13,148 bases of DNA from Akkermansiaceae bacterium (GTDB taxonomy: Bacteria; Verrucomicrobiota; Verrucomicrobiia; Verrucomicrobiales; Akkermansiaceae): positions 1-13,148 of the forward strand of contig JALOTR010000012.1 in assembly GCA_025457805.1 (NCBI GenBank), written 5' to 3'. Every line of letters begins with the position of its first letter. Position 1 is the first letter of the stretch. Below are positions 1 through 13,148 of the stretch, piece after piece. Below the pieces are notes generated by a model that worked only from the letters and a program-made list of their open reading frames with translations, had not been told where the DNA came from and searched no databases. The position numbers were made by a program, and so were the translations under genes.

Positions 1-2773
1 CACTTGAGGCCAGGCTTGCCATCCGCTCGTCCGCAGGGCTCGGCATGCACACCTTGATGCTGCAGACGGTCTAACTCTGAGCTGCCTCAAGGCAAATGGC
101 AGCGTCTGGGCAAGTGGCGACAACCAATTCGGCCAACTCGGGGATGGCTCCACGACATCCACCAATTCCCCGATCGAAGTGCTCACCGGCGTGAAAGCCA
201 TTTCCGCAGGCAGAAACCACAGTTTGTTCATCAAGGAAGATGGCAGCGCGTGGTCCTGCGGATCGAATGCGTATGGGCAATTGGGAAATGGCACGACGAA
301 TAGCGGTGCCACTCCCAATCCCGTGCAGGTCCTCACGGATGTGCAAGCCGTCTCCGCCGGATCAACGCATAGCCTGTTCCTCAAAACCGACGGCACGGTG
401 TGGGCATGTGGCGAGAATTTCTTCGGTCAACTCGGGGATGGGACCAGAATTGACAGATCCATTCCCACTCAGATTTCCCTCACCGATGTGAAAGTGGTTT
501 CCGCTGGCCCCCATCATAGCCTCTTCCTCAAACAAGATGGCACCGCGTGGGCATCAGGTTCGAACTCGGACGGGCAATTGGGAACTGGTCCCAATGTGAG
601 CGACTTCTTCAAGTCCACGCCAGTCCAAGTGCTCACGGGGGTGCGCACTCTGGATGCCGGCGGATCCCACAGCATTTTCGTGAAAAACGATCCGGGCGGC
701 ACCACCTATGCAACCGGCGGCAACTACAATGGCGAATTTGGCGATAACAGCACGAATCCATCGTTCAGTCCCAAGCTGGTGTTTTTCGGAGGCGTCGATG
801 TCTCGGCGGGGGCAAGTCATACAATGTTCATGAGAACCGGTGCGATCCATGCCACAGGGTTCAACAACGGCGCGCTGGCCATCGGCAACAACGACACCCA
901 GCTCAGACCCGTCAAGACTCTCACGGAAGGAGATCAAGCCGTCTCGGCGGGCCAGAACCACAGCCTGATTTTGGTGAGAAGCGGCAAGGTGTTTGCCAGC
1001 GGCAGGAACCTCTCAGGGCAACTCGGAGATGGCACACTGCTATCAACAGCCACTCCGGTGGAAGTCACCGGGTTGTGGATTCCGGAACTGGTAGTGAACG
1101 CACCCGGCGGCCAAAGACTCGACTCCGGCGGAACCACAACGGCATTTGGAAGTGTGAATCGCGGATCGAACCAAAGTCTCACCTTCACCCTCAAAAACGC
1201 GGGTTTTGGGGCTCTCACAGGAATTACTCCCACTTTCATCGGTGGAAATGCTTCGGACTTCACAATCGCGCTTGCACCCTTGTCCGAAGTTTCCCCGGAA
1301 GGAACCACCACCTTTACCGTGAGATTTACCCCGGCGGGCAATGGTGCCCGCGCCACGACCTTGCGTCTCGCGAGCAGCGATCCGGATGAAAGCAGCTTCG
1401 ATATCCCGCTCAGTGGCATCGGCGTGGGCATCCCCGAAATCACCGTGCTCAATGGCACGGCAAATCTCAACGATGGCAATTCCGCGAGTTATGGGTCCGT
1501 GAATCGCGGCACGAACAAGGTGATTTCCTTCACCATCAGAAACACCGGCACCCTCAGTCTCACCGGCATCGCGGCAAGCCTCAGCGGCGGGACCGTTTCC
1601 GACTATGCCATCACTACGGCTCCGGCTTCATCGTTGGCGCCGAATGCGAGCACCACAGTGAGTGTGAGATTCACCCCAGCGGCCGCCGGTGCGCGCACGA
1701 CCACGCTGCGCATCGCGAGCAACGACGCGGATGAAAACCCCTTCGATATCCCCCTTTCCGGCACGGGGGTGAGCGTTCCTGAAATAGCCATCAACCAGGG
1801 CAAAGCACTGCTCGTCGATGCGGCATCCAGCGTGGCTTTTGGATCGATTGATATAGGCTCCAATCGTATCATCTCACTCACCATCAGGAATGTCGGCACC
1901 GCCAATCTCACCGGCATCGCTGCCAGCCTGCCGGGAGCCAGCGCGACGAGTTATAAAATCACCACTGTTCCTCCAGCCACCCTCGCGCCGGATGCCACGG
2001 CCACCGTGAGCATCCGCTTCACACCGTCCGCACCGGGTGCACGAAACACCTTGCTTCGCATCTCCAGCAATGATGCGGATGAAAACCCATTCGACATCGC
2101 CCTCACCGGCAGCGGTATGGCGGTTCCGGAAATCACGGTTGCGAATGGGAGGGCAAACCTCATCGATGGCAAATCCACCGTCGGTTTCGGATCCGTCAAG
2201 TCAGGCTCATCCGAGGTCATCACCCTGACCATCAGGAACACCGGCACCGCGCCGCTGACGAAAATTGCCGCATCCCTCAACGGAGCCCAAGCCAACCAGT
2301 TCAAAGTATCCAAACCCGGCGCAAGTCTCGCCCCAGGAAAGTCCACTACGGTGAAAGTCACCTTCAGCCCCACGGGCACAGGAGCGCGTTCCACCACCTT
2401 GCGGATCGCCAGCAGCGATAGCGACGAAAAGGTCTTTGAGATCAAACTGTCCGGCACCGCAGGCGCGGCGGCCAAGTCCGCTCTCGTCGCCGGAGTGGCA
2501 GCCTCCCGGAACGCTCCGGAAAGTGGCAAAGTCACCTCCCGCCTCCTCGCGGATGGCTCGCGCCATCGCATCCTCACCGTGGAAAAAAGTGCCGCCGCCG
2601 GCCTCATCCCATTGGTGGAAGTGTCATCGGATCGCGTCACCTGGTTCAGCGGGCCGGATCATACCGCCGTCCTCATCGACGATGCCGCCCTCCTGCGGGT
2701 CATGGACCGCACGCCTCATTCACCCGCGGCCAAGCGTTTCATCCGGGTTCGCTGGCTGGCCGGGAATCGCTGA
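1..2773 (+). CDS. RCC1-repeat / ASH (choice-of-anchor D type) repeat protein, 5' truncated, frame break near 60-95
   Basis: This is the 3' part of a large repeat protein, probably exported, that continues off the left edge. From a GTG at 179 the open frame gives 864 residues, but that GTG lies inside a repeat and is not the true start. Residues 1 to about 300 hold six RCC1-type blades with the recurring pattern V-x-A-V-S-A-G-x-x-H-S-L-F-L-K-x-D-G and G-Q-L-G-D-G-T. Residues 301-762 hold four repeats of 115-117 residues, each starting [IV]-P-E-[IL] and containing F-G-S-V, a T-[IL]-[RK]-N segment, V-R-F-T-P and L-R-[IL]-[AS]-S-[ND]-x-D-E, typical of ASH/choice-of-anchor D beta-sandwich domains. 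Residues 763-864 are an unassigned tail. Upstream, bases 3-60 encode matching blade sequence (SSAGLGMHTLML) in frame 3 and bases from about 80 continue in frame 2, so the frame is broken. RCC1 propellers usually bind partners; the role here is unknown. Domain calls are confident, function is not. Confidence 0.85.
98..1078 (+). repeat. RCC1 beta-propeller repeats (coding tandem repeats)
   Basis: About seven consecutive units of roughly 50 codons run through this stretch, each repeating S-A-G-x-x-H-[ST]-[LIM]-[FI] followed by G-x-x-x-x-G-Q-L-G-[DNT]-G. The blades around 650-900 are more diverged: G-E-F-G-D-N and A-L-A-I-G-N replace the usual G-Q-L-G-D-G. Seven blades is the size of a complete RCC1 propeller, and fragments of another blade lie upstream. 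Confidence 0.8.
1079..2463 (+). repeat. Four tandem ~348-bp repeats encoding ASH-like domains
   Basis: Repeat units begin at about 1079, 1430, 1775 and 2123, each encoding [IV]-P-E-[IL]. They share long near-identical DNA stretches, for example the segments encoding TIRNTGT / TIRNVGT and LRIASNDADENPFDI. Units 2 and 3 are the most alike at DNA level, pointing to recent internal duplication. Such repeats can also collapse or expand in short-read assemblies. Confidence 0.8.
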
Positions 2774-2774
2774 G

Positions 2775-2813
2775 ACTTCACTCATCTCCGGTGCGAATCC
2801 GGAAGGGTGAAGT
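2775..2813 (+). terminator. Stem-loop just after the RCC1/ASH gene, candidate terminator
   Basis: A two-part hairpin begins one base after the TGA stop. The outer arms ACTTCAC (2775-2781) and GTGAAGT (2807-2813) pair perfectly, and the inner arms TCCGG (2787-2791) and CCGGA (2799-2803) close a 7-base loop. No U-tract follows, so if it stops transcription it may need Rho or may protect the 3' end instead. Confidence 0.45.
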
Positions 2814-2892
2814 GCACTCCAGAAGCATACACGCGATCACGTGTCGCGACGCTCTTGTGACGAAGGGGGAGTTATGATATTTCCCCATCTTC

Positions 2893-3309
2893 ATGAACTC
2901 ATTCCCCCCTGCCGATTGTCCAGCATGTGTTCTTTTGGTGGATCAAGCCTCCGAGATGAGACATGCCATAGAGCGCACGCTCACTGCAAATGGCTATCAG
3001 GTTCACATCGCCACCAACCGCCATGAGGCAGCGGCCGAAGTGCGGGAAAACGAAATCCACCTCGTGGTGATGAACATGCTCATGCCGCATGCGGAGGGAA
3101 TCGGCACTCTCATGGCCATTCGTTCGATTTCTCCCACGATGAAGCTCATCGCGATGCCCGGTGAAACGGGCGACCAGGCCGGCCATTTCCTGCCGCTTGC
3201 CAAGTCGCTCGGCGCATCCGCCATTCTCACCCATCCGCTCGATCACGAGCTTCTGCTCAAGACCGTGCGTGGACTGCTCAGTCAGGAGCTCCGGCAGATG
3301 GCGTGTTGA
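2893..3309 (+). CDS. Stand-alone degenerate receiver (pseudo-receiver) domain protein
   Basis: The 138-residue protein is a single CheY-like receiver fold with no output domain. The first strand is V-L-L-V-D-Q (residues 13-18), leaving one acidic residue where receivers usually have two. The strand that normally ends in the phospho-accepting Asp reads L-V-V-M-N-M-L-M-P, so Asn61 occupies the Asp position. The switch Thr/Ser after strand 4 appears to be Pro89 (L-I-A-M-P-G), and the conserved Lys before the last cis-Pro is His114 (L-T-H-P-L). With all three changed, phosphorylation by the usual chemistry is not expected; such proteins normally act by protein-protein contact. The ATG has no clear Shine-Dalgarno; a purine run (AAGGGGGAG) lies about 20 bases upstream. 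The 3' end overlaps the convergent flippase-like gene by 32 bp. The fold is confident, the partner unknown. Confidence 0.8.
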   Translation: MNSFPPADCPACVLLVDQASEMRHAIERTLTANGYQVHIATNRHEAAAEVRENEIHLVVMNMLMPHAEGIGTLMAIRSISPTMKLIAMPGETGDQAGHFLPLAKSLGASAILTHPLDHELLLKTVRGLLSQELRQMAC

Positions 3310-4309
3310 CGGAATCCGGTTGTTTCACCGCCTCCAGATCGCTGGCGTGGATGCGGTCCCGCTTTTTAAGGAAAAACAGTGCGCCTAACAAGGCCCACAG
3401 CGCATTGCAGCCAAAGCCCGCCAAGGAAGCGGCCACGGCAACTTCCGCCGGAACCCGGGCGAGATCGTGCAGCAGCACTTCGAAAAGTTTCTCCCGCACA
3501 CCCACGCCGCCGATGGACACGGGCATGCCGCTGATGGCATCGATCACCGGCATGGCGGACATCACATCCGAGTAAGCAGGGCTGCCACCCACTGCCCGCA
3601 CGCCGCAGTAATAGGAGGAGAAATACGCACCCAGCATCAGGAAGGAAACGCCGAGGCCCGCGAGGGCATGCCGCCACTTTTTCCGATAGATATCATATAA
3701 CTCCGGTATCTGCTTCATCATCGGCCAGCGCGCGAAGCGGTTGTTGCCATGAATGCGCCGATGCACCGGAGGCGAGGCAAATACGAAGATGAGCGCCACC
3801 ATCGCCAGCCCGCCACCCAGATAGACCCAGGCGAAGTGGATGACGCCGCGGCCGAGCACGCTCGGATCCGCGAGCGCATCAAAACGCGCGGCGGACATGA
3901 TGAAAAACAACAGGGCAATCGAAACCAGCCCCGCCAGATGATCCGCCGTCACGGCCATCGCGATGACCAGCTTGCGCCCGGGATGATCCCGCATGAGCAG
4001 GATGATGCGCGCGGCGGATCCACCGAGCCCGCTTACCGATGCCAGGCTGAACAAACCATCGATCATCGTCAGTTCCACCGCCCTCCCGAGGGAAATGCGG
4101 ATGTCTTGCGCCCGCAGGAAAAACCACCCACGCGCCGCCTGAAGGACAACTGAAATTCCTGCCAACGCAGCACCGCCAGCCAGCCAGCGGTAATCCACCG
4201 CGCCCGGCCGGGTGAAAACGGAGTGATCGAACTCCACTTGCGAGAAGGCCCAATACAGACAGCCCGCCGTGAGCGCCAGCTTGAGGAGAAATACGAGGAT
4301 GGCCTTCAT
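3278..4309 (-). CDS. Flippase-like integral membrane protein (LPG synthase TM / UPF0104 family)
   Basis: The 343-residue protein has about eight hydrophobic helices across its length, the first at residues 4-22. It carries the family's characteristic segments: G-L-G-G-S-A-A-R (residues 94-101), and near residues 261-273 the motif G-M-P-V-S-I-G-G-V-G-V-R-E, which matches the P-x-S-x-G-G-x-G-x-R-E signature of the LPG_synthase_TM (UPF0104, YbhN-like) family. Members are thought to move or transfer lipid-linked substrates; the substrate here is unknown. The ATG at 4309 was preferred over an upstream start at 4366 because it opens directly into the first membrane helix, avoids overlap with the acyl carrier protein gene, and is preceded by AGAGGGG about 10 bases upstream. 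It is the last gene of an operon with the ACP (16-bp gap) and FabG genes. Its end overlaps the receiver gene convergently. Confidence 0.85.
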   Translation of the reverse strand: MKAILVFLLKLALTAGCLYWAFSQVEFDHSVFTRPGAVDYRWLAGGAALAGISVVLQAARGWFFLRAQDIRISLGRAVELTMIDGLFSLASVSGLGGSAARIILLMRDHPGRKLVIAMAVTADHLAGLVSIALLFFIMSAARFDALADPSVLGRGVIHFAWVYLGGGLAMVALIFVFASPPVHRRIHGNNRFARWPMMKQIPELYDIYRKKWRHALAGLGVSFLMLGAYFSSYYCGVRAVGGSPAYSDVMSAMPVIDAISGMPVSIGGVGVREKLFEVLLHDLARVPAEVAVAASLAGFGCNALWALLGALFFLKKRDRIHASDLEAVKQPDSVNTPSAGAPD

Positions 4310-4325
4310 GCGGGCGGCCACCCCT

Positions 4326-4583
4326 CTAGGCGGATTTCTCAATCTCGGTGGCAATGGTTTCCACATTCTCCAGGATGCCCTTGGCGGCAGCGGAATCGCC
4401 TATTTTCAAACCAAAGTGTTTCTCCAGCGCGACTACCAACTGCAGTGCATCTACCGAATCCAGCCCCAGACCCTCGCCGCCGAAGATGGCCGTCGTGTTG
4501 CCGATTTCCTCCGGTTTGGAATCGAGCATCAACTCCTCCACCATCACTTCCTTGATTTTTGCACGCAGGGTTTCGCTATCCAT
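4326..4583 (-). CDS. Acyl carrier protein (accessory type)
   Basis: This 85-residue acidic helical protein carries the phosphopantetheine attachment motif G-L-D-S-V-D-A-L, with Ser43 as the expected modified residue. Length and helix pattern are standard for a discrete acyl carrier protein. The D-S-V-D form, rather than D-S-L-D-T-V-E as in housekeeping fatty-acid ACP, together with its place between a ketoreductase and a flippase-like gene, suggests a specialised acyl chain or secondary lipid rather than bulk fatty-acid synthesis; this is inference. The bases before the ATG are pyrimidine-rich (CACCCACCC), with no Shine-Dalgarno. It sits 41 bp after fabG and 16 bp before the flippase-like gene. 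Confidence 0.9.
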   Translation of the reverse strand: MDSETLRAKIKEVMVEELMLDSKPEEIGNTTAIFGGEGLGLDSVDALQLVVALEKHFGLKIGDSAAAKGILENVETIATEIEKSA

Positions 4584-4624
4584 GATGGGTGGGTGAATCG
4601 GGTTTTGAGTGGGTTGAGAAGATA

Positions 4625-5350
4625 TCAGTAAATCCCGCCATCGATTTTCAGCGAGGCGCCCGTGATATAGGCGGCATCGTTGCTGGCAAGGAAATAGACC
4701 GCTGCGGCCACTTCCTCCGGCTTGCCAAAGCGGCGCATCGGGATGCCCGCGCGGGCCTGCTTGCGGGCGTCTTCATCCATCGCGCCGATCGCATCGGTCT
4801 CGATGTAGCCGGGCAGGATCGAATTCACCGTGATGCCCGAGCGGGCGACTTCTTTGGCCAGCGTCCGACCCAGCGCCACCACTCCCGCCTTGGCGGCGGC
4901 GTAGTTGGTTTGCCCCAAGGGCGGGAGGATGGCACTCAGCGAGGCGATATTGATGATGCGCCCGAAACGCTGCCGCATCATCGGCGTGACCACCGCGCGG
5001 CAGCCATGGAAGGTGGAATCGAGATTCGAGGAAATCACCTCATGCCACGTCTCGCTCGGCATGGCAGGCAGCAGGCAATCGCGGTGCATCCCGGCATTGT
5101 TCACCAGCACGTCGATCCGTCCATCCGCTTGGACGATGGTTTCCACCGCCTGGGTCCATGCCGCGGAATCCGTGACTTCCAGATCCAGCAAACGACAACG
5201 TCCCGGAAACTCCGCCGCCAGCGCAGCGGCTTGCTCACGATTCCGCCTTACCCCCAGCCAGACCGAGGCCGCCGGATCACGATCCAGAAAATAGCGGCCA
5301 ATCGCCAGACCGAGCCCGCCATTTCCGCCAGTGATGAGAATCGAACGCAC
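4625..5350 (-). CDS. fabG: SDR-family 3-oxoacyl-ACP reductase (FabG-like)
   Basis: The 241-residue protein is a classical short-chain dehydrogenase. It shows the nucleotide-binding T-G-G-N-G-G-L-G (residues 7-14), N-N-A-G (84-87), Asn109, the catalytic Ser137 in I-N-I-A-S-L, and Y-A-A-A-K (Tyr150, Lys154). The C-terminal pattern P-G-Y-I-E-T-D and G-A-S-L-K-I-D-G-G is typical of NADPH-dependent beta-ketoacyl-ACP reductases. The neighbouring ACP gene supports an acyl-ACP substrate. The start is a GTG with no Shine-Dalgarno, the first codon of the fold; the gene leads the operon and faces away from the gene at 5463. The gene name refers to the family; this may be a paralogue serving the accessory pathway rather than the housekeeping enzyme. 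Confidence 0.88.
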   Translation of the reverse strand: MRSILITGGNGGLGLAIGRYFLDRDPAASVWLGVRRNREQAAALAAEFPGRCRLLDLEVTDSAAWTQAVETIVQADGRIDVLVNNAGMHRDCLLPAMPSETWHEVISSNLDSTFHGCRAVVTPMMRQRFGRIINIASLSAILPPLGQTNYAAAKAGVVALGRTLAKEVARSGITVNSILPGYIETDAIGAMDEDARKQARAGIPMRRFGKPEEVAAAVYFLASNDAAYITGASLKIDGGIY

Positions 5351-5424
5351 GCCCGAAACTGGCGCAGCGCGGCTGGCAGGTCAAGGTTGGCGGGGATGGT
5401 GGCGATAGGGCTTTCAAAATTCGT

Positions 5425-5452
5425 TTGGCGAGCATCCCGACCGATGTTAAAT
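5425..5452 (+). promoter_or_regulatory. Possible sigma70-type promoter for the 5463-7000 gene pair
   Basis: TTGGCG (5425-5430) and TTAAAT (5447-5452) are separated by 16 bp in the 112-bp divergent gap between fabG and the next gene. A start about 7 bases after the -10 box would leave almost no leader before the TTG codon at 5463. This is a by-eye match only. Confidence 0.25.
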
Positions 5453-5462
5453 CCACACCAGA

Positions 5463-6008
5463 TTGATCGGAAGCGAGTCACCCACCCTGCGGCAGCGCAT
5501 CGAAGGCTTCGAGCTCGATGAACCGGGAGTGACGCTTCCCTTCACCAGCCGTTTGGCGCGCGAACAAGGATGGAGTCATGTGTTTGCGGCGCGTGTGGTC
5601 CGCGAATACAAACGCTTTCTCTGCCTCGCATGCGAAGCGGGTCATCCTGTGACGCCCTCGGAGGAAGTCGATCAGGCATGGCACCTGCATTTGGTTTATA
5701 CACAGAGTTATTGGAAAGACCTTTGCGGGGATGTGCTCGGCCGGGAACTCCACCATGGCCCCACCCGCGGCGGCGCGGCGGAAGGGGAAAAATTCGTGGA
5801 TTGGTATGGTAAAACTCTCGAAAGTTATGGGCGCTTGTTCGGCGAGGTCCCGCCCACAGATATCTGGCCATCACCGGCGCAGCGATTTGGTGGTCCATTC
5901 GCCGCCCGCTGGGTGGACCCGGAAAAATTCTGGATTGTCCCCAAGCCGCAATGGAAATGGATATCATTTCGCAAATTGTTCCGTATTCGACCCACCCCAT
6001 CCCCATGA
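5463..6008 (+). CDS. GRDP-like (DUF1399-type) WHxH protein, uncharacterised
   Basis: This 181-residue soluble protein has no signal peptide or membrane helix. It contains E-E-V-D-Q-A-W-H-L-H (residues 67-76), matching the V-D-x-x-W-H-x-H core of the glycine-rich-domain-containing-protein-like family (PF07173, formerly DUF1399). A second conserved-looking patch is H-H-G-P-T-R-G-G (97-104), then F-V-D-W-Y and D-I-W-P. The His residues and Asp70 could bind a metal, but no function is established. The TTG at 5463 is the only plausible start: an in-frame stop lies at 5448, and the family-like sequence begins directly after the start. Its TGA overlaps the ATG of the next gene (ATGA, 6005-6008), so the two are probably translationally coupled. 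From memory, similar pairs occur in other bacteria. Confidence is high that it is a gene, moderate for the family. Confidence 0.75.
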   Translation: MIGSESPTLRQRIEGFELDEPGVTLPFTSRLAREQGWSHVFAARVVREYKRFLCLACEAGHPVTPSEEVDQAWHLHLVYTQSYWKDLCGDVLGRELHHGPTRGGAAEGEKFVDWYGKTLESYGRLFGEVPPTDIWPSPAQRFGGPFAARWVDPEKFWIVPKPQWKWISFRKLFRIRPTPSP

Positions 6009-7000
6009 TCATCCCCTCGCTGGAAATGCTTGCTCGGATTCCTCTGCTCGATTGGTACGGGACGGAGTTCCTGTTATTCTATATCGTTGCTCTCATCGTT
6101 ATCGGCTTGTGGACGATCCGCCGCGCCCGGCGCTCGCTGCATTGTTATGACAATTCCCACGAACATGCGCTACTGACAGATCCCTTCGAGGTTGCCTATC
6201 TCTCCGCCGGTCCGGACAGGGTCACCCAATTGGCTATATCGAGATTGATCCACCGCAAGTTGGTGTTGTGGCAATCGGGATTCTGGAAATCGAGTCTGAT
6301 CGCCAACCAGGGTCGCACGGGAGTTCCATCAGATCTGTTGGAACCAGAGCGCGTTCTGTTAGGCCGGATTCAGGCCTTTGGTGCGAAGGGCATGCCGGTC
6401 AAAGGCGCGCCTGCAGTGGTGTTTCCCACGCTGCGACCGATCGAGGTGCGGCTTGCATTGTTGGGACTGCGGCCCACGGAAGAAGAACGAAAGTCGGCGA
6501 CCACTACCACGATTCTGCCGCTTCTGTTGTTGGTGCTTTTGGGCGCAGCGAAGGTGGGGATCGGATTCATGAGTGACAAACCCGTATTGTTCCTCGTTCT
6601 GTTGCTGGTCCTCACGGTGATTGTGATGATGAGCATGCCCGGTCTGGTCCCGCGGCTCACGCCGTCCGGCGAGCGCATGTTGGACAAGATGCGATTGAAG
6701 AATGAGACCGCACGTCATGGTGCCCGGGTGGATGATCTTGCGGAAATGGGCATGTTTTCCCACTCGGTGGCATTGTTCGGACCGGTGGCCGTCGCGATGT
6801 TGCCCGGCTTCGGTGCCATTCACCAAGAGATCGAGCGGCTCAAGGCCCAAGCCGTAACCACTGCCGCAAGCGGCTGTTCCTCCGGGGGAGTAAGCAGCGG
6901 CTGCGGTGGAGGTGGCTGCGGCAGCAGTGGCAGCAGTGGCAGCGGAGGAGGAAGTGGCTGCGGCAGCAGCGGTTGCGGTGGGTGTGGCGGAGGTGATTGA
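6005..7000 (+). CDS. TIGR04222-like membrane protein with Gly/Ser/Cys-rich C-terminal tail
   Basis: This 331-residue protein begins with a short segment leading into a membrane helix (G-T-E-F-L-L-F-Y-I-V, about 19-36). A soluble stretch of about 130 residues follows, then two adjacent helices (about 170-190 and 193-216), a second soluble part, and a C-terminal tail (290-331) made almost only of Gly (22), Ser (12) and Cys (6). The arrangement of an N-terminal G-x-E-F-L-x-F-Y helix, a conserved middle and an extreme Gly/Cys tail fits the TIGR04222 membrane-protein family, as far as I recall it; its function is unknown. The ATG at 6005 overlaps the previous gene's stop as ATGA; an in-frame ATG at 5951 would add 18 residues but overlap that gene by 58 bp. 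A hairpin straddles the stop codon. The tail could bind metal, form disulfides or be modified. Confidence 0.75.
   Translation: MIIPSLEMLARIPLLDWYGTEFLLFYIVALIVIGLWTIRRARRSLHCYDNSHEHALLTDPFEVAYLSAGPDRVTQLAISRLIHRKLVLWQSGFWKSSLIANQGRTGVPSDLLEPERVLLGRIQAFGAKGMPVKGAPAVVFPTLRPIEVRLALLGLRPTEEERKSATTTTILPLLLLVLLGAAKVGIGFMSDKPVLFLVLLLVLTVIVMMSMPGLVPRLTPSGERMLDKMRLKNETARHGARVDDLAEMGMFSHSVALFGPVAVAMLPGFGAIHQEIERLKAQAVTTAASGCSSGGVSSGCGGGGCGSSGSSGSGGGSGCGSSGCGGCGGGD
6872..6997 (+). repeat. Low-complexity GGC/AGC/TGC coding repeat (Gly/Ser/Cys tail)
   Basis: The last 42 codons before the stop are nearly all GGN, AGC/AGT/TCC and TGC/TGT, with short tandem units such as GGCAGCAGTGGCAGC. Six Cys codons are spread through it, closer together towards the end (G-C-G-S-S-G-C-G-G-C-G). 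Such sequence can gain or lose units by slippage. Confidence 0.8.
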
Positions 7001-7026
7001 AATCAAAGGCGGTTCGCTCATTTCAA
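6997..7026. terminator. Hairpin shared by two convergent genes, candidate bidirectional terminator
   Basis: Arms TTGAAAT (6997-7003) and ATTTCAA (7020-7026) pair perfectly, with a small inner GCG/CGC stem at 7009-7017. The structure covers the stop codon of the gene ending at 7000 and the stop of the opposing gene at 7018-7020. There is no long U-tract in either direction, so termination strength is uncertain. Confidence 0.45.
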
Positions 7027-9297
7027 GGACCCATGAGTCGTGCTGCCAGTAAGATGCAGCGACTTCTTGGGCCCCTGGAGCACGAGGGCATAGGTGGCAT
7101 TGATGAGATCGTCCTCGCCCATGTAAGGTGCGCCCATGTGAGGGGTGGTGAAATGCAGTCCATAGCCGGGTTCCCATGCCAGGGCGAACCACCATGCGTA
7201 TTCGGAAATGATTTTCTGATAGGCATCCGGCAAGGCAAGATTGAGTCCTAACAGACCGAGCGAACCGCCGGGTTCTCCATAGGCATGGCTGTTGCGGATC
7301 CAGGGATGGTTCGCGGCCATGAATCCTGTCATCGCATCGCGCATGTCCGGTCGCTGATTGCGAAGATGTGCAGCCATGGCAAACAAGCCGGAGCGCGACC
7401 AGAATTCCTCGGTGTCTTTGTAGGAACGGTTGTATCCCAACGAGCCATGCCCGCCTTCCTTGGGATCGGACCATGACATCTCCATGTAGGGCATGAGCAA
7501 TTCCCAAATGCCGGATTTCATCCCACAACGCATGGCGAGCGCTTCGAAAACCAGCAGATGGCAAGCTGGAGCGACGAGCGCCTTTTCCTCATAAGGCAGG
7601 CCACTCGGACCATGGCCAAGTGCGGGCACATCCCACTTGCTTGGATGCTGGCCATTCACGGCCCAATCGCGGAGTTCATCGAGGTTCTTCAACACCGACT
7701 TGTCACCCGTGGCAAGATGCCACTCGCTGTAGAGGATGCCGGCATAGGCACCTGCCCAGAATCCAAGATTTCCATAGTCATCCGGTTTCTTATACTTTTC
7801 CTTGGCCCATTCGACCGCCTTGCGGACACGCGATTTGTGCTTTGCTTCGCCCGTGGCGATCAGTGCCAAGGCGGAATAACAAGTGCGGATCATGTCGCCG
7901 GACCAACTGCCGTCTTCCTTCTGCGTCCGGACGAGAAACTCCAGACAATCCTCCAACAAACGCGCCGCCTCCGGATCATCGGCCGGATTCATGGTGGTGA
8001 AAGCACGTTTGCGGGCAAGGGGAAATTCGATGGTTTCTACCTTACCTTTTCGTAGCAGAGTGATAGGAAGTGTGGTTTTTCCTGCTTTGAGGGCGAGTTC
8101 GGTTTCGCGGCCGATGATGGCTTCGTGGCTGCGCTGAAACCATTCCCAGCCCGGGCTCAGATCGTTGACAGGCAGGGGCTTGCCAGCGATCGCAAGGATC
8201 ACATCGCCAGTTTTGAGATGTTCTCTCGCCGCAGAGGAACCTGATTGTACGGTCATCACCGCGAGTGAAGTCTGCTTGTGTTCGGTGAGCGCATCAAAGC
8301 CTAACAGACCCGCCGCCAGCTTGTCCGGTCCGAGACCCCCATTCGATCTGCCATATAACTTCGGGCTGGGTTCCAAGTGGAGTCGTTCCAAACGAGGAGT
8401 GCCAATCACCACGCTGGCATCGGGACCATTTTTCACCCGCAGGCCGAAGGTTTTTCCTTCTAACAATTTCATCATCTCCGCAGGAATTTCCGCCCATGCC
8501 CGGGAGCCGGCGGCCATTGGTGTCAGCGGATTGAGTTTGACCCCCACCGCTTCCACTTCGGCGGCGGTGCCGAAGCCGCCGCCGCTCCAGTCGCTCTCGA
8601 TCACGAAACGGAATGCATCAACAATCACCGGTTCCGGCAGCGTGATTTCAAGTGTCTTGCGGTTGTCGGCTTCGATGGTTTCTCCGGAGTTCACGGATTT
8701 CCAATCCTCGCCCGGCAGCCGGATTTCGAGGCGATATCTTCTCGCCACGCCATTGGTGAATCCACCCTGCCTCGGAGTGTAGCGGATGCGGGTGAGGCGA
8801 GTGGGTTTGCCAAACTCCAGACCCAGCCAATGGGGTGGCTTGTCCTGTTGGCCGCTGTAGTTGGAATGCCAATCCGTTTTGATATCTCCATCGAATGCCT
8901 TGTCAGCCTCCGCTCCTGGATGGCCGGATGAGGAAATCACCACCCACTCCGCTCGTGGCGCCGGGCTTGATACCTCGGTGGCCCCTGATGCAAAAACCTC
9001 ACCGCTCGCAGGATCCAGTGCTTCTAACAAAACCTTGCCCGACTGTTTTCCCGATGAGCCATAGAGATCCACCGATAACAACCCGCGCCACTCGCCACCC
9101 GCTTCCCTTTCCTTGTCGGTGAGCGCAGGCACCTGGATCGGCAAGCTCGCTGCCGCATCCGGCGCGAGTTCGAAGCCACCATCGCCGACCAAGGGCCAGG
9201 ACCGGATGGTATTTCCATTCGTTTCAAATCCACCCACCGGCACCGGGGCCGCGAACAAGGGTGAACACATCAATACTCCAGCAAACAAACGATACAT
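7018..9297 (-). CDS. Secreted discoidin–PDZ–alpha/alpha-toroid protein (DUF6288-like)
   Basis: The 759-residue product starts with a signal peptide (M-Y-R-L-F-A-G-V-L-M, cleavage likely near F-A-A-P), which is why the ATG at 9297 was chosen over one 14 codons upstream. Residues about 117-250 look like an F5/8 type C (discoidin) sugar-binding domain (A-F-D-G-D-I-K-T-D-W-H, L-G-L-E-F-G, R-Y-R-L-E-I). Residues about 330-380 resemble a PDZ domain (G-L-L-G-F-D, L-K-T-G-D-V-I-L-A-I-A-G). From about 447 to the end lie helical repeats of the squalene-cyclase-like toroid class, with a QW-type motif Q-K-E-D-G-S-W. This order resembles DUF6288 proteins of Verrucomicrobia and Planctomycetes, of unknown function. 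No lipobox is seen. An envelope or extracellular carbohydrate role is inferred from the discoidin part. No Shine-Dalgarno precedes the start. Confidence 0.8.
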   Translation of the reverse strand: MYRLFAGVLMCSPLFAAPVPVGGFETNGNTIRSWPLVGDGGFELAPDAAASLPIQVPALTDKEREAGGEWRGLLSVDLYGSSGKQSGKVLLEALDPASGEVFASGATEVSSPAPRAEWVVISSSGHPGAEADKAFDGDIKTDWHSNYSGQQDKPPHWLGLEFGKPTRLTRIRYTPRQGGFTNGVARRYRLEIRLPGEDWKSVNSGETIEADNRKTLEITLPEPVIVDAFRFVIESDWSGGGFGTAAEVEAVGVKLNPLTPMAAGSRAWAEIPAEMMKLLEGKTFGLRVKNGPDASVVIGTPRLERLHLEPSPKLYGRSNGGLGPDKLAAGLLGFDALTEHKQTSLAVMTVQSGSSAAREHLKTGDVILAIAGKPLPVNDLSPGWEWFQRSHEAIIGRETELALKAGKTTLPITLLRKGKVETIEFPLARKRAFTTMNPADDPEAARLLEDCLEFLVRTQKEDGSWSGDMIRTCYSALALIATGEAKHKSRVRKAVEWAKEKYKKPDDYGNLGFWAGAYAGILYSEWHLATGDKSVLKNLDELRDWAVNGQHPSKWDVPALGHGPSGLPYEEKALVAPACHLLVFEALAMRCGMKSGIWELLMPYMEMSWSDPKEGGHGSLGYNRSYKDTEEFWSRSGLFAMAAHLRNQRPDMRDAMTGFMAANHPWIRNSHAYGEPGGSLGLLGLNLALPDAYQKIISEYAWWFALAWEPGYGLHFTTPHMGAPYMGEDDLINATYALVLQGPKKSLHLTGSTTHGSLK

Positions 9298-9354
9298 GAC
9301 GCCGTGATAACGCCACAAATCGACCGATCCTTCCAGCAAAACCGCCGGACGGGA

Positions 9355-9945
9355 TCAACCACCCGCATCCCACCATGCCGGTTGTTTGCCGGGCTTCCAC
9401 TTGATGTTGCAGCCGCTGCTGGGATAAGGCCGCGCCAAGGGCTCCTCGCCCGCAAGCATCCGTCGTGCGGATTCGCGCAGATCTCCACCATGCGCAGCCT
9501 GTCCGCTGCGGGGGCGCGAGTCATCGAATTGCCCGGCGTAGAACAGGTGACCTTCGCCATCAAAGAGGAAAAAATCCGGCGTGCAGGCCGCGCCGTAAGC
9601 GATCGCCGTTTCCTGCGTGTCATCGATGAGATAGGGGAAATCCCATTTTCTCTCCTGTGAAAATTCCATCATGTGCTCGGGTCCGTCCTGCGGATACTTC
9701 TCGGTGTCGTTGGAATTGATGGCTACGGTATGGACTCCCTGCTCCCAGAGTTCACGCGCCAGAACTCCCAAGGCATCCGCCAGATGAACCACGAAGGGGC
9801 AGTGATTGCATGCAAACACCACCAGCAAACCCTTGGGCCCCATCGCGTCCTTGAGGGTGACCACCGTGCCATGCGCATTCGGCAGTGAGAAATCCGGCGC
9901 CGCATCTCCGGTATGCAGGCGGAATGTGGAAAGAACTTCGGACAT
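9355..9945 (-). CDS. Thioredoxin-fold redoxin / AhpC-TSA-like protein with CNHC motif
   Basis: The 196-residue protein has the redoxin start G-D-x-A-P-D-F-S-L-P (residues 13-22), then V-V-F-A-C-N-H-C-P-F-V, where Cys46 and Cys49 form a CxxC pair expected to be redox-active. The later T-P-D-F-F-L-F-D holds the conserved cis-Pro of the thioredoxin fold, and the C-terminus contains G-C-N-I-K-W-K, a patch typical of this family of about 190 residues. It is probably a thiol-disulfide oxidoreductase or atypical peroxiredoxin in the cytoplasm, as no signal peptide is seen. The ATG at 9945 was chosen because family similarity starts there; a longer frame reaching 10155 would run through the palindromic control region. 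It is transcribed away from the MoeB-rhodanese gene, sharing a 162-bp divergent region. Confidence 0.85.
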   Translation of the reverse strand: MSEVLSTFRLHTGDAAPDFSLPNAHGTVVTLKDAMGPKGLLVVFACNHCPFVVHLADALGVLARELWEQGVHTVAINSNDTEKYPQDGPEHMMEFSQERKWDFPYLIDDTQETAIAYGAACTPDFFLFDGEGHLFYAGQFDDSRPRSGQAAHGGDLRESARRMLAGEEPLARPYPSSGCNIKWKPGKQPAWWDAGG

Positions 9946-10006
9946 GCCGACATCATAACACAGGTCACGCCGAGGTGAAATCGTTTTCAATCCCGTCCTG
10001 AAATGC

Positions 10007-10044
10007 GCGACAATCCTCGTGACGGCCGTCACAAAAATTGTCGC
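10007..10044. promoter_or_regulatory. Concentric double palindrome in a divergent promoter region, candidate operator
   Basis: A perfect 14-bp palindrome, GTGACGGCCGTCAC (10019-10032), is enclosed by perfect 8-bp arms GCGACAAT (10007-10014) and ATTGTCGC (10037-10044), with 4-bp unpaired spacers (CCTC and AAAA). All parts share one centre at 10025.5. The inner part contains GTGA-N6-TCAC, the core spacing of CRP/FNR-family sites. It lies between the divergent starts at 9945 and 10108, so it is well placed to control both genes. The regulator is unknown. Confidence 0.55.
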
Positions 10045-10107
10045 ATGTTTTTCCCGCGCGATTCCCACTTGGACAGCAGGCTGGATCCGCGTCATGGTGG
10101 CGGCGCG

Positions 10108-11232
10108 ATGCCAGCCAGCCTCCAGCCGGAAGAAATCTTGCGATACTCGCGCCACCTACTCATCCCCGCGGTCGGCGAGGCGGGTCAATTGCGCTTGAAA
10201 CAAGCCTCCGTCCTGCTCGTCGGCACTGGCGCTCTCGGTTCGCCCTCCGCCATGTATCTCGCTGCCGCAGGTGTCGGCCGTCTCGGTCTGGTGGATGCGG
10301 ATGTGGTGGATGCCTCGAATCTCCAACGCCAAATCCTTCACGGCGAGTCATGGGTGGGAAAACCCAAACTCGAAAGCGCCGCCGCGCGATTGCGCGAGGT
10401 CAATCCCCATGTCGATGTGGTGCTTCATCCCGTGCGATTCACTCCGGCCAATGCCATGGAAATCGCAGCGAGTTATGACATCATCGTCGATGGTTCGGAC
10501 AATTTTCCCACCCGCTTCCTCACCAACGACACGGCCTTCTTCCTGCGCAAACCCCTCGTTTACGGCGCGATCCACCGCTTCGATGGACAAACTTCGGTCT
10601 TCGCCCCGCACCTCGGCGGGCCTTGTTACCGCTGCCTACTTCCCACCATGCCCGCGGCCGGCAGCGTGCCATCGTGTCAGGAAGCCGGTGTGCTTGGGGT
10701 CCTGCCAGGCATCATTGGCTCGATTCAGGCGATGGAAACGCTCAAGTTGATCCTTCAAATCGGCACCGTCCCGCTCGGCAAGCTCACGGTTTATGATGCG
10801 TTGCAAAGCAGTTTCCGCTCGCTCAAACTCCACCGCGATCCCAAGTGTCGGCTTTGTGGTGATCAACCCGACATTCAATCGGTTTCGAACGGCGAAACAC
10901 TCGCCTCCGCATCCTGCGAAATTTCCACCTCACACCCCATGGACAGCATCACCACCACCGAACTCCGCGAATTGTTAGATAAGGGATATGATGGCATCCT
11001 AGTCGATGTCCGCGAGCCTGCCGAACATGCCATCGCCCACATCGAAGGCTCGCGCTTGATCCCGCTGGGCACTCTGGGCGATCACCTCGGCGAACTGCCA
11101 AAGGACAAGGAAATCCTCATCCACTGCAAATCCGGGATGCGCTCTGCCAAAGCCGTGCAGATCCTGTTAGATAATGGCTACACCCGGGTGAAAAACGTCT
11201 CGGGCGGCATCGATGCATGGTTGAAGGGATGA
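10108..11232 (+). CDS. moeB: MoeB/ThiF-type adenylyltransferase fused to rhodanese (MoeZ/MoeBR-like)
   Basis: This 374-residue fusion would adenylate the C-terminus of a small sulfur-carrier protein (MoaD, ThiS or similar) and supply sulfur. Residues 1 to about 250 are an E1-like domain: R-Y-S-R-H-L near the start, the ATP-binding G-T-G-A-L-G (39-44), D-x-S-N-L-Q-R-Q, and four zinc-site cysteines in C-Y-R-C (173, 176) and C-R-L-C (247, 250). Cys190 in S-C-Q-E-A-G-V-L-G sits where the family's acceptor Cys is found. Residues about 275-374 are a rhodanese domain with active-site loop C-K-S-G-M-R (Cys340). The ATG at 10108 begins the conserved sequence; an upstream in-frame ATG at 10003 would put the palindrome inside the gene. 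No MoaD, ThiS or other cofactor gene is nearby, so the carrier (molybdopterin, thiamine or other thiolation) is undecided. The convergent esterase ends one base away. Confidence 0.9.
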   Translation: MPASLQPEEILRYSRHLLIPAVGEAGQLRLKQASVLLVGTGALGSPSAMYLAAAGVGRLGLVDADVVDASNLQRQILHGESWVGKPKLESAAARLREVNPHVDVVLHPVRFTPANAMEIAASYDIIVDGSDNFPTRFLTNDTAFFLRKPLVYGAIHRFDGQTSVFAPHLGGPCYRCLLPTMPAAGSVPSCQEAGVLGVLPGIIGSIQAMETLKLILQIGTVPLGKLTVYDALQSSFRSLKLHRDPKCRLCGDQPDIQSVSNGETLASASCEISTSHPMDSITTTELRELLDKGYDGILVDVREPAEHAIAHIEGSRLIPLGTLGDHLGELPKDKEILIHCKSGMRSAKAVQILLDNGYTRVKNVSGGIDAWLKG

Positions 11233-11233
11233 T

Positions 11234-12475
11234 TCAATCCCCATCCGGCTTGGTGGGATCCTTCATCGGACTCTGGGCCATGCGGAAGCTGGATGGATCG
11301 TCGGGTTTGGCGGGATCAAAAGGTTTCACATCATCCACAAGGTGTTTAGCCAGTTCGGGGAAGCCGCTGCGGATTCCTTCGACGATGCACTTGGCGATTT
11401 CATAACTTCCGAAGTTGTTATGATGCGTTCCATCCTGAAACGCGGCATCGAGATTGGCGCCGAGGGCTTGGTATAGCTTGCGGCTCATCGGATGAAGATC
11501 GATGAGCGTGGCCTCGGTCGATTTCGCCACGCGCCGCACCGCATCGGGATAACCCGCCAGCGTGTCCTTGTGCACGCCTCCCTTGCGTTCCATTGAGGTG
11601 ACGAGCACCGCCGTGGCACCTTTTCCTTGGATGTCCTTGACCATGGCGGTGAGATCACTTTCGTAAGTTGCAAGTGCATCCGGCTGTTTGCTTTTCATGT
11701 CGTTGTGGCCGAACTGGATGAAGACATAGTCGCCCTTTTTTGCCAGTGAGAGCACCTTCTTCACCCGGCGTGCAGAGAGCGAGCTGCGGATCGATTCACC
11801 GGATTCTGCATAGTTGGCCACGGCGATCCCCGGTTTGAAAAAACGCGGCAGCATCTGGCCCCAGGAGTTCCACGGCTCGTAGGGCTGATCCGTCACCGTC
11901 GAATCCCCTAACAGAAACACGGTGGTCGCCTCCGGGGCCGGTGTGATCACCACTCCCGCAACGCAGGGACGTGGGCCGTTGAATTCGAGGGTAAGTTTCT
12001 GATCCCAATGCAGATAGTCCTTTTCCCGTGGCTTGAGCCCCACTCGCGAGCCGTCTTCGATCTCCGGCGTGCGGATGTTGGCGGTGAATTTGCGGACAAC
12101 TTGCTCGCCTTGGGCCGTGGTGATGTTTTCCAGCATGAGACGCCGCGACTCGGACTTGATGGTGGTATCGGAAGTTCCTTTGGAATCTCCCAGCGTCACC
12201 TCGACATCATAGTTTCCCTCCGGCAGATCCACCGAAAAACAAAAGCCACCTTCAGCTGTTAGAAAATCCCCACCCCAGGCATCGCCGCCGCGATCCGTTG
12301 TGGTGGGCGCGTGGCCGATTTCAAATCCATAACCGCGCTCCTTGCTGTAGTTCATCGACGCCTCCACACCGATCGTCTCCGCCGCCACCCGCGATGTGCC
12401 GAAGTCGAAGCGCATGGGTTTGGTTTCCGCGTGGGAAGGAAGCAGGAGCAACAATAGAGGGAACAAGGGTTTCAT
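11234..12475 (-). CDS. Secreted SGNH/GDSL esterase, rhamnogalacturonan acetylesterase-like
   Basis: The 413-residue protein starts with a clear signal peptide (M-K-P-L-F-P then a run of Leu, cleavage after P-S-H-A). Residues about 20-180 form an N-terminal beta domain with F-D-F-G and G-Y-G-F-E, as found before the catalytic domain in many rhamnogalacturonan acetylesterases. The SGNH catalytic blocks are complete: G-D-S-T-V (Ser192), G-E-S near residue 225, G-H-N-D (Asn258) and D-G-T-H (Asp348, His351). It probably removes acetyl groups from pectic or related polysaccharides outside the cytoplasm (CE12-like); the exact substrate is inferred from family resemblance. The ATG at 12475 opens the signal peptide directly; a TTG three codons upstream is less likely. 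Its stop is one base from the stop of the convergent MoeB-rhodanese gene. Confidence 0.88.
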   Translation of the reverse strand: MKPLFPLLLLLLPSHAETKPMRFDFGTSRVAAETIGVEASMNYSKERGYGFEIGHAPTTTDRGGDAWGGDFLTAEGGFCFSVDLPEGNYDVEVTLGDSKGTSDTTIKSESRRLMLENITTAQGEQVVRKFTANIRTPEIEDGSRVGLKPREKDYLHWDQKLTLEFNGPRPCVAGVVITPAPEATTVFLLGDSTVTDQPYEPWNSWGQMLPRFFKPGIAVANYAESGESIRSSLSARRVKKVLSLAKKGDYVFIQFGHNDMKSKQPDALATYESDLTAMVKDIQGKGATAVLVTSMERKGGVHKDTLAGYPDAVRRVAKSTEATLIDLHPMSRKLYQALGANLDAAFQDGTHHNNFGSYEIAKCIVEGIRSGFPELAKHLVDDVKPFDPAKPDDPSSFRMAQSPMKDPTKPDGD

Positions 12476-12520
12476 GGCACCCAAGTATCGATCCGGCAGA
12501 ACCCGATGTCACCCACCATT

Positions 12521-12542
12521 CCGTCCTTCAATTGGGGGACGG
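12521..12542. terminator. Hairpin between two minus-strand genes, possible terminator
   Basis: CCGTCC (12521-12526) and GGACGG (12537-12542) form a perfect stem that extends on the plus-strand RNA by two G·U pairs and a C-G to an AATT tetraloop. In the minus-strand transcript, the direction both neighbours are read, the two G·U pairs become A/C mismatches, so the stem is weaker. No U-tract is present in that direction. Confidence 0.3.
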
Positions 12543-12548
12543 CTCGGC

Positions 12549-12959
12549 TCAGAGGGGTGGCAGACTTGCCAAAATGGCGTCCAGACGCTCGCGGGTCCCA
12601 TGGGTGTCGCACCAGTTTCCGATGTATGCCATGTCGAGAGTCTCAGGTCCCTGCACCGCAAGCACATCCCGGGCATCATCAAGATCCTTGGATCGGCCCC
12701 AACGGATTTTCTGGACGATGAGATCCTCGGCAGTGGGAAGCCAAGTTTCGATTCCCAATTCAGGAGCGGCCTTCTTGTACCTGCGATTGAACTGCTCCTT
12801 TACGAAAGGATCATCAAAAAGCTCAAACAGTTCGACTACCAAAGCCGTGTTTCCAGCGGCCTTTCCAATGTGCCTGCGACCCCAGGTGATGGTGTCGAAT
12901 TGGACTTGGTCTCGGAACTCAATCTCAGGCTCGAGGCGGGAAATGAGTTGGTTGATGCT
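12549..12959 (-). CDS. Nucleotidyltransferase-family protein, C-terminal part only (5' end lost at chimeric join)
   Basis: 136 residues remain, from S-I-N-Q to the stop. The pattern V-V-E-L-F-E-L-F-D-D-P-F, E-Q-F-N-R-R and T-A-E-D-L-I-V-Q-K-I-R-W-G-R-S-K-D-L-D-D matches the second half of small nucleotidyltransferase-fold proteins (AbiEii-like/MNT superfamily; the region often appears as P-E-D-L-I-x-x-K-L-x-W). The N-terminal half, which would carry the G-G and D-x-D catalytic residues, is missing because the sequence switches to an unrelated gene at about 12950-12975. The open frame does continue to the window end, but there it is antisense to ptsI and not meaningful. Full-length relatives include toxins or antitoxins, but no partner gene is visible, so no role is claimed. 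Confidence 0.65.
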   Translation of the reverse strand, partial: SINQLISRLEPEIEFRDQVQFDTITWGRRHIGKAAGNTALVVELFELFDDPFVKEQFNRRYKKAAPELGIETWLPTAEDLIVQKIRWGRSKDLDDARDVLAVQGPETLDMAYIGNWCDTHGTRERLDAILASLPPL

Positions 12960-12976
12960 TTCGGGCCGATCAACCT
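12945..12976. other. Chimeric junction between two genomes
   Basis: To the left the minus strand codes for the nucleotidyltransferase-family protein; to the right the plus strand codes for the inside of enzyme I. Both genes are cut at the same place. Perfect 7-bp inverted arms GGTTGAT (12950-12956) and ATCAACC (12969-12975) flank the seam, which may have helped an assembly or amplification artefact to form. Confidence 0.7.
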
Positions 12977-13148
12977 TCTGATTCCCATGCTGGCCCATGC
13001 CAGCGAGATCCGTCAGACCCTGGCGCTGATCGACAAGGCGCGTGCCCAGCTGGACGCGCGCGCACAGGTGCACGGGATGGTGCGCATCGGTGCCATGATC
13101 GAGGTGCCCGCCGCCGCGCTGACCATTCCGCTGTTCCTGCGCCATTTC
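12960..13148 (+). CDS. ptsI: PTS enzyme I (phosphoenolpyruvate–protein phosphotransferase), internal fragment, foreign
   Basis: The 63 codons are open to the window edge. They encode I-N-L-L-I-P-M-L-A-H-A-S-E-I, then I-G-A-M-I-E-V-P-A-A-A-L, which aligns with the PEP-binding barrel of enzyme I (E. coli PtsI has M-F-P-M-I and I-G-V-M-V-E-T-P-A-A-A). The Glu of M-I-E-V-P corresponds to the Mg/PEP-ligand region. The start of enzyme I (HPr-binding and phospho-His domains) is absent and the end runs off the window. The wording M-L-A-H-A-S-E-I-R-Q-T-L is, from memory, like Comamonadaceae enzyme I, and base composition is higher in GC than the rest of the window. It is best treated as contamination by misassembly, not as a gene of the host organism. 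Confidence 0.85.

Follow-up and report, generated by a model that had tools for sequence, protein, structure and literature searches.

What does a small soluble protein do when its gene overlaps that of a membrane protein whose end is composed almost entirely of glycine, serine and cysteine? The question is raised by two genes in a 13,148-nucleotide stretch of an Akkermansiaceae genome (phylum Verrucomicrobiota; contig JALOTR010000012.1 of assembly GCA_025457805.1, positions 1 to 13,148 of the forward strand), here called the window. The first gene (5463..6008, plus strand, TTG start) encodes protein A, a 181-amino-acid protein with a W-H-x-H motif, and the second (6005..7000, plus strand, ATG start) encodes protein B, a 331-amino-acid membrane protein of the TIGR04222 family that bears the tail. 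A reading made previously from the sequence only had described the two as a pair joined by an ATGA overlap, and translation of the open reading frames bears this out, the stop codon of A and the in-frame ATG of B overlapping at 6005..6008 on the plus strand; an alternative in-frame ATG of B at position 5951 would give a product of 349 amino acids. We find that the cysteine tail is conserved, that A is linked to cysteine tails in several unrelated architectures, and that A, MNIO enzymes and radical SAM enzymes occur beside such tails one at a time. The explanation we favour, with confidence slightly better than even, is that A serves the Cys/Gly tail as a partner for its maturation or metal loading, filling the position of an MNIO or radical SAM maturase.

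The cysteine-bearing tail of protein B

Protein B matches TIGR04222 with 102.8 bits against a curated cut-off of 43, across positions 5-229 of the 229 in the profile. Its last 42 residues, encoded at 6872..6997 on the plus strand and ending in CGSSGCGGCGGGD, comprise 22 Gly, 12 Ser, 6 Cys, 1 Val and 1 Asp, exactly the composition reported in the sequence-only reading. Glycine is specified here by all four of its codons and serine by AGC, AGT and TCC, a mixed codon usage that rules out a slipped DNA repeat as the source of the tail. Among the 120 homologues of B listed (of 880), every one has at least three cysteines within its final 45 residues and 114 have the motif CGGC within their final 20; cysteine is thus retained in all of the close relatives listed, with no Cys-less tail among them. 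Some homologues are fusions of A and B in a single protein (for example P0180, P0193 and P0194). Between the two domains of the A-B fusions at loci L005, L006, L009, L147 and L149, the intervening segment often ends in a lipobox-like motif, and A may there precede a cleavable internal signal peptide.

The same composition had invited a comparison with microcin B17, in which the tail would be an azole peptide made by a YcaO pathway. Gly/Ser/Cys content is all that this idea has in its favour; a Pfam scan limited to ten proteins of the window gave no YcaO match at E 0.1, and the MNIO and SbtM-like radical SAM systems described below offer better parallels. We consider a microcin-like peptide hardly credible. 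What survives of the proposed two-component system for the tail is the coupling of A to the tail, and not its microcin-like character. It had also been said that both families lack known functions, a statement that is outdated for TIGR04222, since Antoine et al. (2025, PMC12452194) proposed its members to be substrates of MNIO enzymes.

One partner at a time beside TIGR04222 tails

The TIGR04222 profile was searched in four phylum samples, each built around one genome: 288 genomes of Verrucomicrobiota, 199 of the phylum of a Phycisphaerae genome (here called Planctomycetota), 299 of the phylum of a Lysobacterales genome (here called Pseudomonadota) and 151 of the phylum of an Abditibacterium genome. 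These samples yielded 9, 8, 12 and 12 places above the cut-off, respectively, 41 in total. At all nine places in Verrucomicrobiota, A adjoins B or is fused to it, so that A and B belong together, as had been supposed, and are not merely occasional neighbours. The converse search of the 288 Verrucomicrobiota genomes with a profile of A found 18 places in 17 genomes, with the Cys tail in the same frame at 10 and on the adjacent B at 6, an adjacent B cut by the contig end at 1, and no tail at 1 (G013).

Partners were tallied at the 32 of 41 places with a visible Cys tail and flanks, the flanks varying in length and many ending at contig edges. Protein A was present at 18 of these (Verrucomicrobiota 8, Planctomycetota 1, Pseudomonadota 5, Abditibacterium phylum 4), an MNIO gene at 10 (0, 4, 0 and 6 in the same order) and a radical SAM gene at 3 (0, 0, 2 and 1); a single place, on a 3.8-kb contig (G302), had no partner, and at none of the 32 did two kinds of partner occur at one tail. 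The tails themselves are of the same kind whatever stands beside them, with a CGGC end at 17/18 places with A, 9/10 with MNIO and 3/3 with radical SAM. Fisher tests, uncorrected for kinship, gave p = 4e-8 for A against the other two partners and p = 4e-4 for the presence of a Cys tail against that of a partner.

The nine places omitted from the tally were of two sorts. Four were cut by contig ends: G243, with a truncated tail and A adjacent, and G595, G543 and G635, where the contig breaks off within the tail or shortly after it. The others had no Cys tail: G681, G679, one of two copies in G403, G377, and one tandem copy in the MNIO operon of G826, where this second, tail-less copy separates the tailed one from the MNIO gene. 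No partner was seen at the tail-less copies of G681, G679, G403 and G377, the last of which covers only half of the TIGR04222 model and may be broken. G291, in which B is split into two frames around a masked stretch, was counted with A.

In a tree of 37 TIGR04222 domains, to which cyanobacterial plasmid copies with A were added (L032 and L033) and from which the broken copy of G291 and the half copy of G377 were left out, nearly all rows with A form one group (two changes); four partner changes are needed overall, and radical SAM appears in two places. Support in this tree is modest and long branches meet. The pattern indicates that the partner was switched a few times rather than 18 times. 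The window pair represents a variant form of the TIGR04222 Cys-tail system, with A occupying the position held elsewhere by an MNIO or a radical SAM gene, and its pairing exceeds chance. Since A occurs where known peptide-modifying enzymes stand beside the same kind of tail in relatives, it is probably a partner dedicated to maturing that tail or to loading it with metal.

The radical SAM genes lie directly after a Cys-tailed TIGR04222 gene (L204, 4623-5675; L205, 5012-6052; L240, 5225-6535). Those of G551 and G631 match PF04055 above its cut-off, and their best NCBIfam model is that of the thio(seleno)oxazole maturase SbtM (TIGR04082), at 114 and 142 bits, below the cut-off of 350; a SPASM match above cut-off was found only in G631. 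The gene of G807 is related to these two (profile E 3e-96). In a term search of the main text of PMC12452194, "radical SAM" occurred only within the reference list. Thiooxazoles are described as products of MNIO enzymes, and the product of SbtM is described as a thiooxazole as well (PMC12668002 and PMC12538549). Since two unrelated types of maturase serve the CGGC tail, it is natural to infer a maturation role for A also, and no more than that.

Could A instead be only a recognition or partner domain, comparable to DUF2063/PME or an RRE, for a maturase whose gene lies at another place in the genome? Protein A is small, helical and often fused to the tail in the manner of a leader, and a count confined to MNIO genes found one somewhere in 26 of 52 A-bearing genomes (4/9, 2/9 and 20/34 in three sets, the third searched together with four further genomes that gave no A). 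In the other 26, several of them drafts and some incomplete, no MNIO was seen. Moreover, within the stretches fetched around 48 A loci, which reach at most 8 kb per side and are often cut by contig ends, an MNIO gene was found near A at one locus (L111), where it stands next to a small protein that is rich in Cys and has a signal-like start, the two apparently forming a separate operon; the profile of the tail-type radical SAM genes matched at 0/48. Conversely, A is absent from the MNIO and radical SAM loci of the tally. In the case of the window, no MNIO (PF05114) match was found in the stretch or in its own draft genome, which is 59% complete, and a profile built from two radical SAM sequences matched no gene at the locus (L157). 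We therefore judge a pure recognition role for A to be unlikely.

The A domain and its other cysteine-rich partners

The soluble partner had been credited with a W-H-x-H core and an H-H-G patch, and both are present: W73-H74-L75-H76 is encoded at 5679..5690 and H97-H98-G99, which corresponds to the HHxP motif of the family, at 5751..5759, both on the plus strand. In a 55-row alignment of A-like domains reaching down to 31% identity, residues D70, W73, H74, T80, Y83, C88, H97, H98 and P100 are invariant and H76 is nearly so. In a shorter type of A, the first His of the HH pair is often Asp, and the D, WH, H, T, Y, C and second H are retained. Hydrophobic segments are absent from protein A, whose best 19-residue mean is 0.57. 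Its AlphaFold2 model is a helical domain with a mean pLDDT of 86.3, which matched nothing in the PDB at E 0.001, and no recognised enzyme fold was found in the structure comparison.

The earlier assignment of A to the GRDP-like family (PF07173) stands in part. Protein A itself, at 16.4 bits, is below the PF07173 gathering cut-off of 22.7, but four of the five short-type relatives tested pass it, and the short-type profile aligns with that of A at an hhalign probability of 98.6. Judged by these profiles, A is a distant relative of the GRDP-like proteins. The 120 homologues of A listed carry the precomputed Pfam label PF27765; no PF27765 match was reported in our Pfam scan of A, and no mention of this family was found in the literature searched.

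Protein A, with its conserved His and Cys residues, accompanies cysteine tails in architectures other than the pairing with B. It was found at 19 places in 16 of the 199 Planctomycetota genomes and at 25 places in 20 of the 299 Pseudomonadota genomes, mostly with a Cys tail of its own. In these two phyla, at least two cysteines lie within the final 45 residues of 38/47 A frames, as against 102/597 neighbouring called frames; two A genes were counted twice via neighbouring loci, and the control includes spurious frames and some tailed partners. The nine other A frames comprise three whose tail is encoded by the following gene (L079, L080 and L098), one cut by the end of its locus, one with a single Cys in the final 45 residues (L095) and four without a tail (L048, L056 and two in L097). 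In one recurrent layout without TIGR04222, the A domain is followed by hydrophobic segments and then by a Cys/Gly/Ser tail (for example L011, L034, L043, L045, L081, L085, L103 and L247). In another, found in two phyla, a short A directly adjoins a protein of 356-380 amino acids that has a Cys-rich Ser/Gly end and no hydrophobic segment (L110, L111, L115 and L137); no Pfam match was found in the three of these four partners scanned, and no NCBIfam match in the two scanned. Finally, a five-Cys C-terminal pattern is present in 120/120 short-type homologues listed for L090 (of 351).

Several further A-domain proteins deserve mention. The five-Cys short proteins (P0241-P0360; L090 and L136) are annotated "glycine-rich domain-containing", the named rows including Pseudomonas, Marinobacter, Microbulbifer and Cobetia, and the five-Cys pattern recurs in the planctomycete sample, in one genome (L112). 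Two neighbouring A-domain proteins of G788 (L134, 7830-8963 and 9399-10223) have a C-terminal half of about 8-9 CAGPH-type repeats, like a multi-core precursor. A divergent A protein with the Cys-rich end CKGCNGCAAGCVS lies between the nifW and nifS genes on a Rhizobium gallicum plasmid (L036, 3815-4405), and another with a Cys-rich end follows a radical SAM gene at a distance of about 1 kb on a Streptomyces plasmid (L038, 1755-4390).

According to the explanation we favour, A and the Cys/Gly tail of B would form one functional module, in which A would most likely act on the Gly-Cys motifs of the tail through a metal site made up of the conserved D/W/H/H, Cys and HH residues or, alternatively, would load metal onto the tail. 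Protein B would hold the tail at the membrane, where the tail would serve to bind a soft metal, copper for instance, or to buffer it. We infer a catalytic or metal-binding A; the modification it might introduce, the metal and the side of the membrane on which the tail lies are likewise offered as predictions. In a simpler scheme, the tail would stay unmodified and bind a metal or cluster through its cysteines, with A serving as a metallochaperone or metal-sensing loader that performs no covalent chemistry. The conserved His and Cys residues of A, together with Cys-rich tails of varied spacing, would suit metal transfer, as would the lack of a recognised enzyme fold and the association of one domain with tails as different as CGGC ends, CAGPH repeats and five-Cys ends. 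Against this, the same CGGC tail is served elsewhere by MNIO and radical SAM enzymes, which are known families of covalent modification, and we regard loading without chemistry as possible but rather doubtful.

Membrane topology and gene surroundings

The side of the membrane on which the tail lies was assessed from hydropathy and counts of charged residues, and is thus a prediction. On the plus strand, hydrophobic segment 1 of B is encoded at 6062..6118, with one Lys or Arg in the 12 residues before it and four in the 12 after it, and segments 2 and 3 at 6512..6637; the hydropathy means of these three are 2.18, 2.30 and 2.83. A weaker segment 4 (6764..6820, mean 1.80) precedes the tail, and the three-helix description given earlier is accordingly right as to the three strong segments, with three or four spans possible. 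In 99 unfused homologues of B, the number of segments above threshold is three in 52, four in 37, two in 7 and five in 3, and the 52 with three have on average 0.6 Lys and Arg before segment 1 and 3.6 after it. This bias points to a start outside the cell membrane and, with three spans, favours a cytosolic tail; if segment 4 of the window's B spans the membrane, the tail would lie outside. Among 20 A proteins with a tail of their own, 15 have two segments, and 14 of these 15 have at least three Lys or Arg after the second, which favours a placement of A and tail on the same side. A cytosolic tail is our guess, in disagreement with the periplasmic location predicted for TIGR04222 tails in PMC12452194, and as for the surface location proposed earlier, the charge patterns lean towards the cytosol and the weak segment 4 may offset them.

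The topology bears on one more alternative, in which the tail would extend outside the cytosol as a structural element or be cross-linked there by disulfides, with A assisting in folding or redox reactions. The Gly/Ser/Cys composition, the published periplasmic prediction and the weak fourth segment are consistent with such an extension, but the charges at segment 1 and in the A hairpin proteins lean to a cytosolic tail, and the fixed Cys pattern of the short type is unlike filler; we think this alternative very improbable.

The genes that flank the pair, at 4625-5350 upstream and 7018-9339 downstream, both lie on the minus strand, opposite to A and B. A row of minus-strand genes at 3278-5350 encodes, consecutively, an LPG-synthase-like membrane protein, an acyl carrier protein and a 3-oxoacyl-ACP reductase-like protein, and may mark the border of a cluster for a lipid or a polyene. 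The product of 7018-9339 has F5/8 type C and DUF6288 matches above cut-off and weak PDZ matches.

Comparison with known systems

The pairing of TIGR04222 with MNIO is already published, and the system with A was not found in the literature searched, which mostly excluded subscription papers. A term search of the main text of PMC12452194 found none of "glycine-rich", "GRDP" or "PF07173", and no paper on a glycine-rich domain-containing protein with radical SAM or RiPP was among the matches listed. According to PMC12452194, 490 of 1372 complete genomes with TIGR04222 genes have no MNIO. For such genomes A is one candidate to serve the tails, and an SbtM-like radical SAM enzyme is a second. If A is an enzyme, it would represent a new kind of cysteine maturase; otherwise, it would be a new metal-loading partner.

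The closest known system is the TIGR04222-MNIO pair (PMC12452194), in which the substrate is of the same family as B and has the same kind of Gly/Ser/Cys tail, and which is represented by the MNIO genes of our tally; the window pair differs in that A is present and no MNIO is adjacent. The SbtM-type radical SAM systems resemble it by way of the genes beside tails in G551, G631 and G807, the window being without such a gene. In the bufferins and the MNIO thiooxazole metallophores, modified cysteines of a Cys-rich precursor chelate copper (PMC12452194, PMC12668002). With its six tail cysteines B shares the Cys-rich character of the bufferin precursors, but these are small secreted proteins with Sec signals and DUF2063 partners, whereas B is a membrane protein and has no MNIO gene as its neighbour.

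A further likeness is to the plant GRDPs, which combine DUF1399 with a C-terminal Gly-rich region containing Cys (PMC4299439, PMC8585784) and, in AtGRDP2 orthologues, a Gly-rich consensus [CG]GGGCGG[GC] (PMC4299439). We also put forward, tentatively, a wider proposal that we consider somewhat doubtful: that the WHxH/GRDP domain, having no relation to the MNIO and radical SAM enzymes, makes up a third class of maturase for Cys tails, which would replace those enzymes at TIGR04222 tails, act in cis on fused tails such as the five-Cys and CAGPH-repeat ends in many bacteria, and do the same in plant GRDPs. It would then be a small metalloenzyme or self-acting modifier, within a modified-protein system common to bacteria and plants. 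The DUF1399/GRDP domain, known in the plant papers by phenotype, gains from the present findings a testable molecular role, as do the Pseudomonas and Marinobacter proteins annotated only as "glycine-rich domain-containing". AtGRDP2 differs in its length of 787 amino acids and its putative RNA-binding motif, and has been studied for growth, stress and auxin. AtGRDP1 and AtGRDP2 (DUF1399/PF07173) nonetheless have a layout similar, by description rather than by sequence, to that found here, a PF07173-like domain at the N-terminus with a Cys-bearing Gly-rich region at the C-terminus; the region linked to the GRDP-like domain is carried by the partner B in the window and by the same protein in relatives of A.
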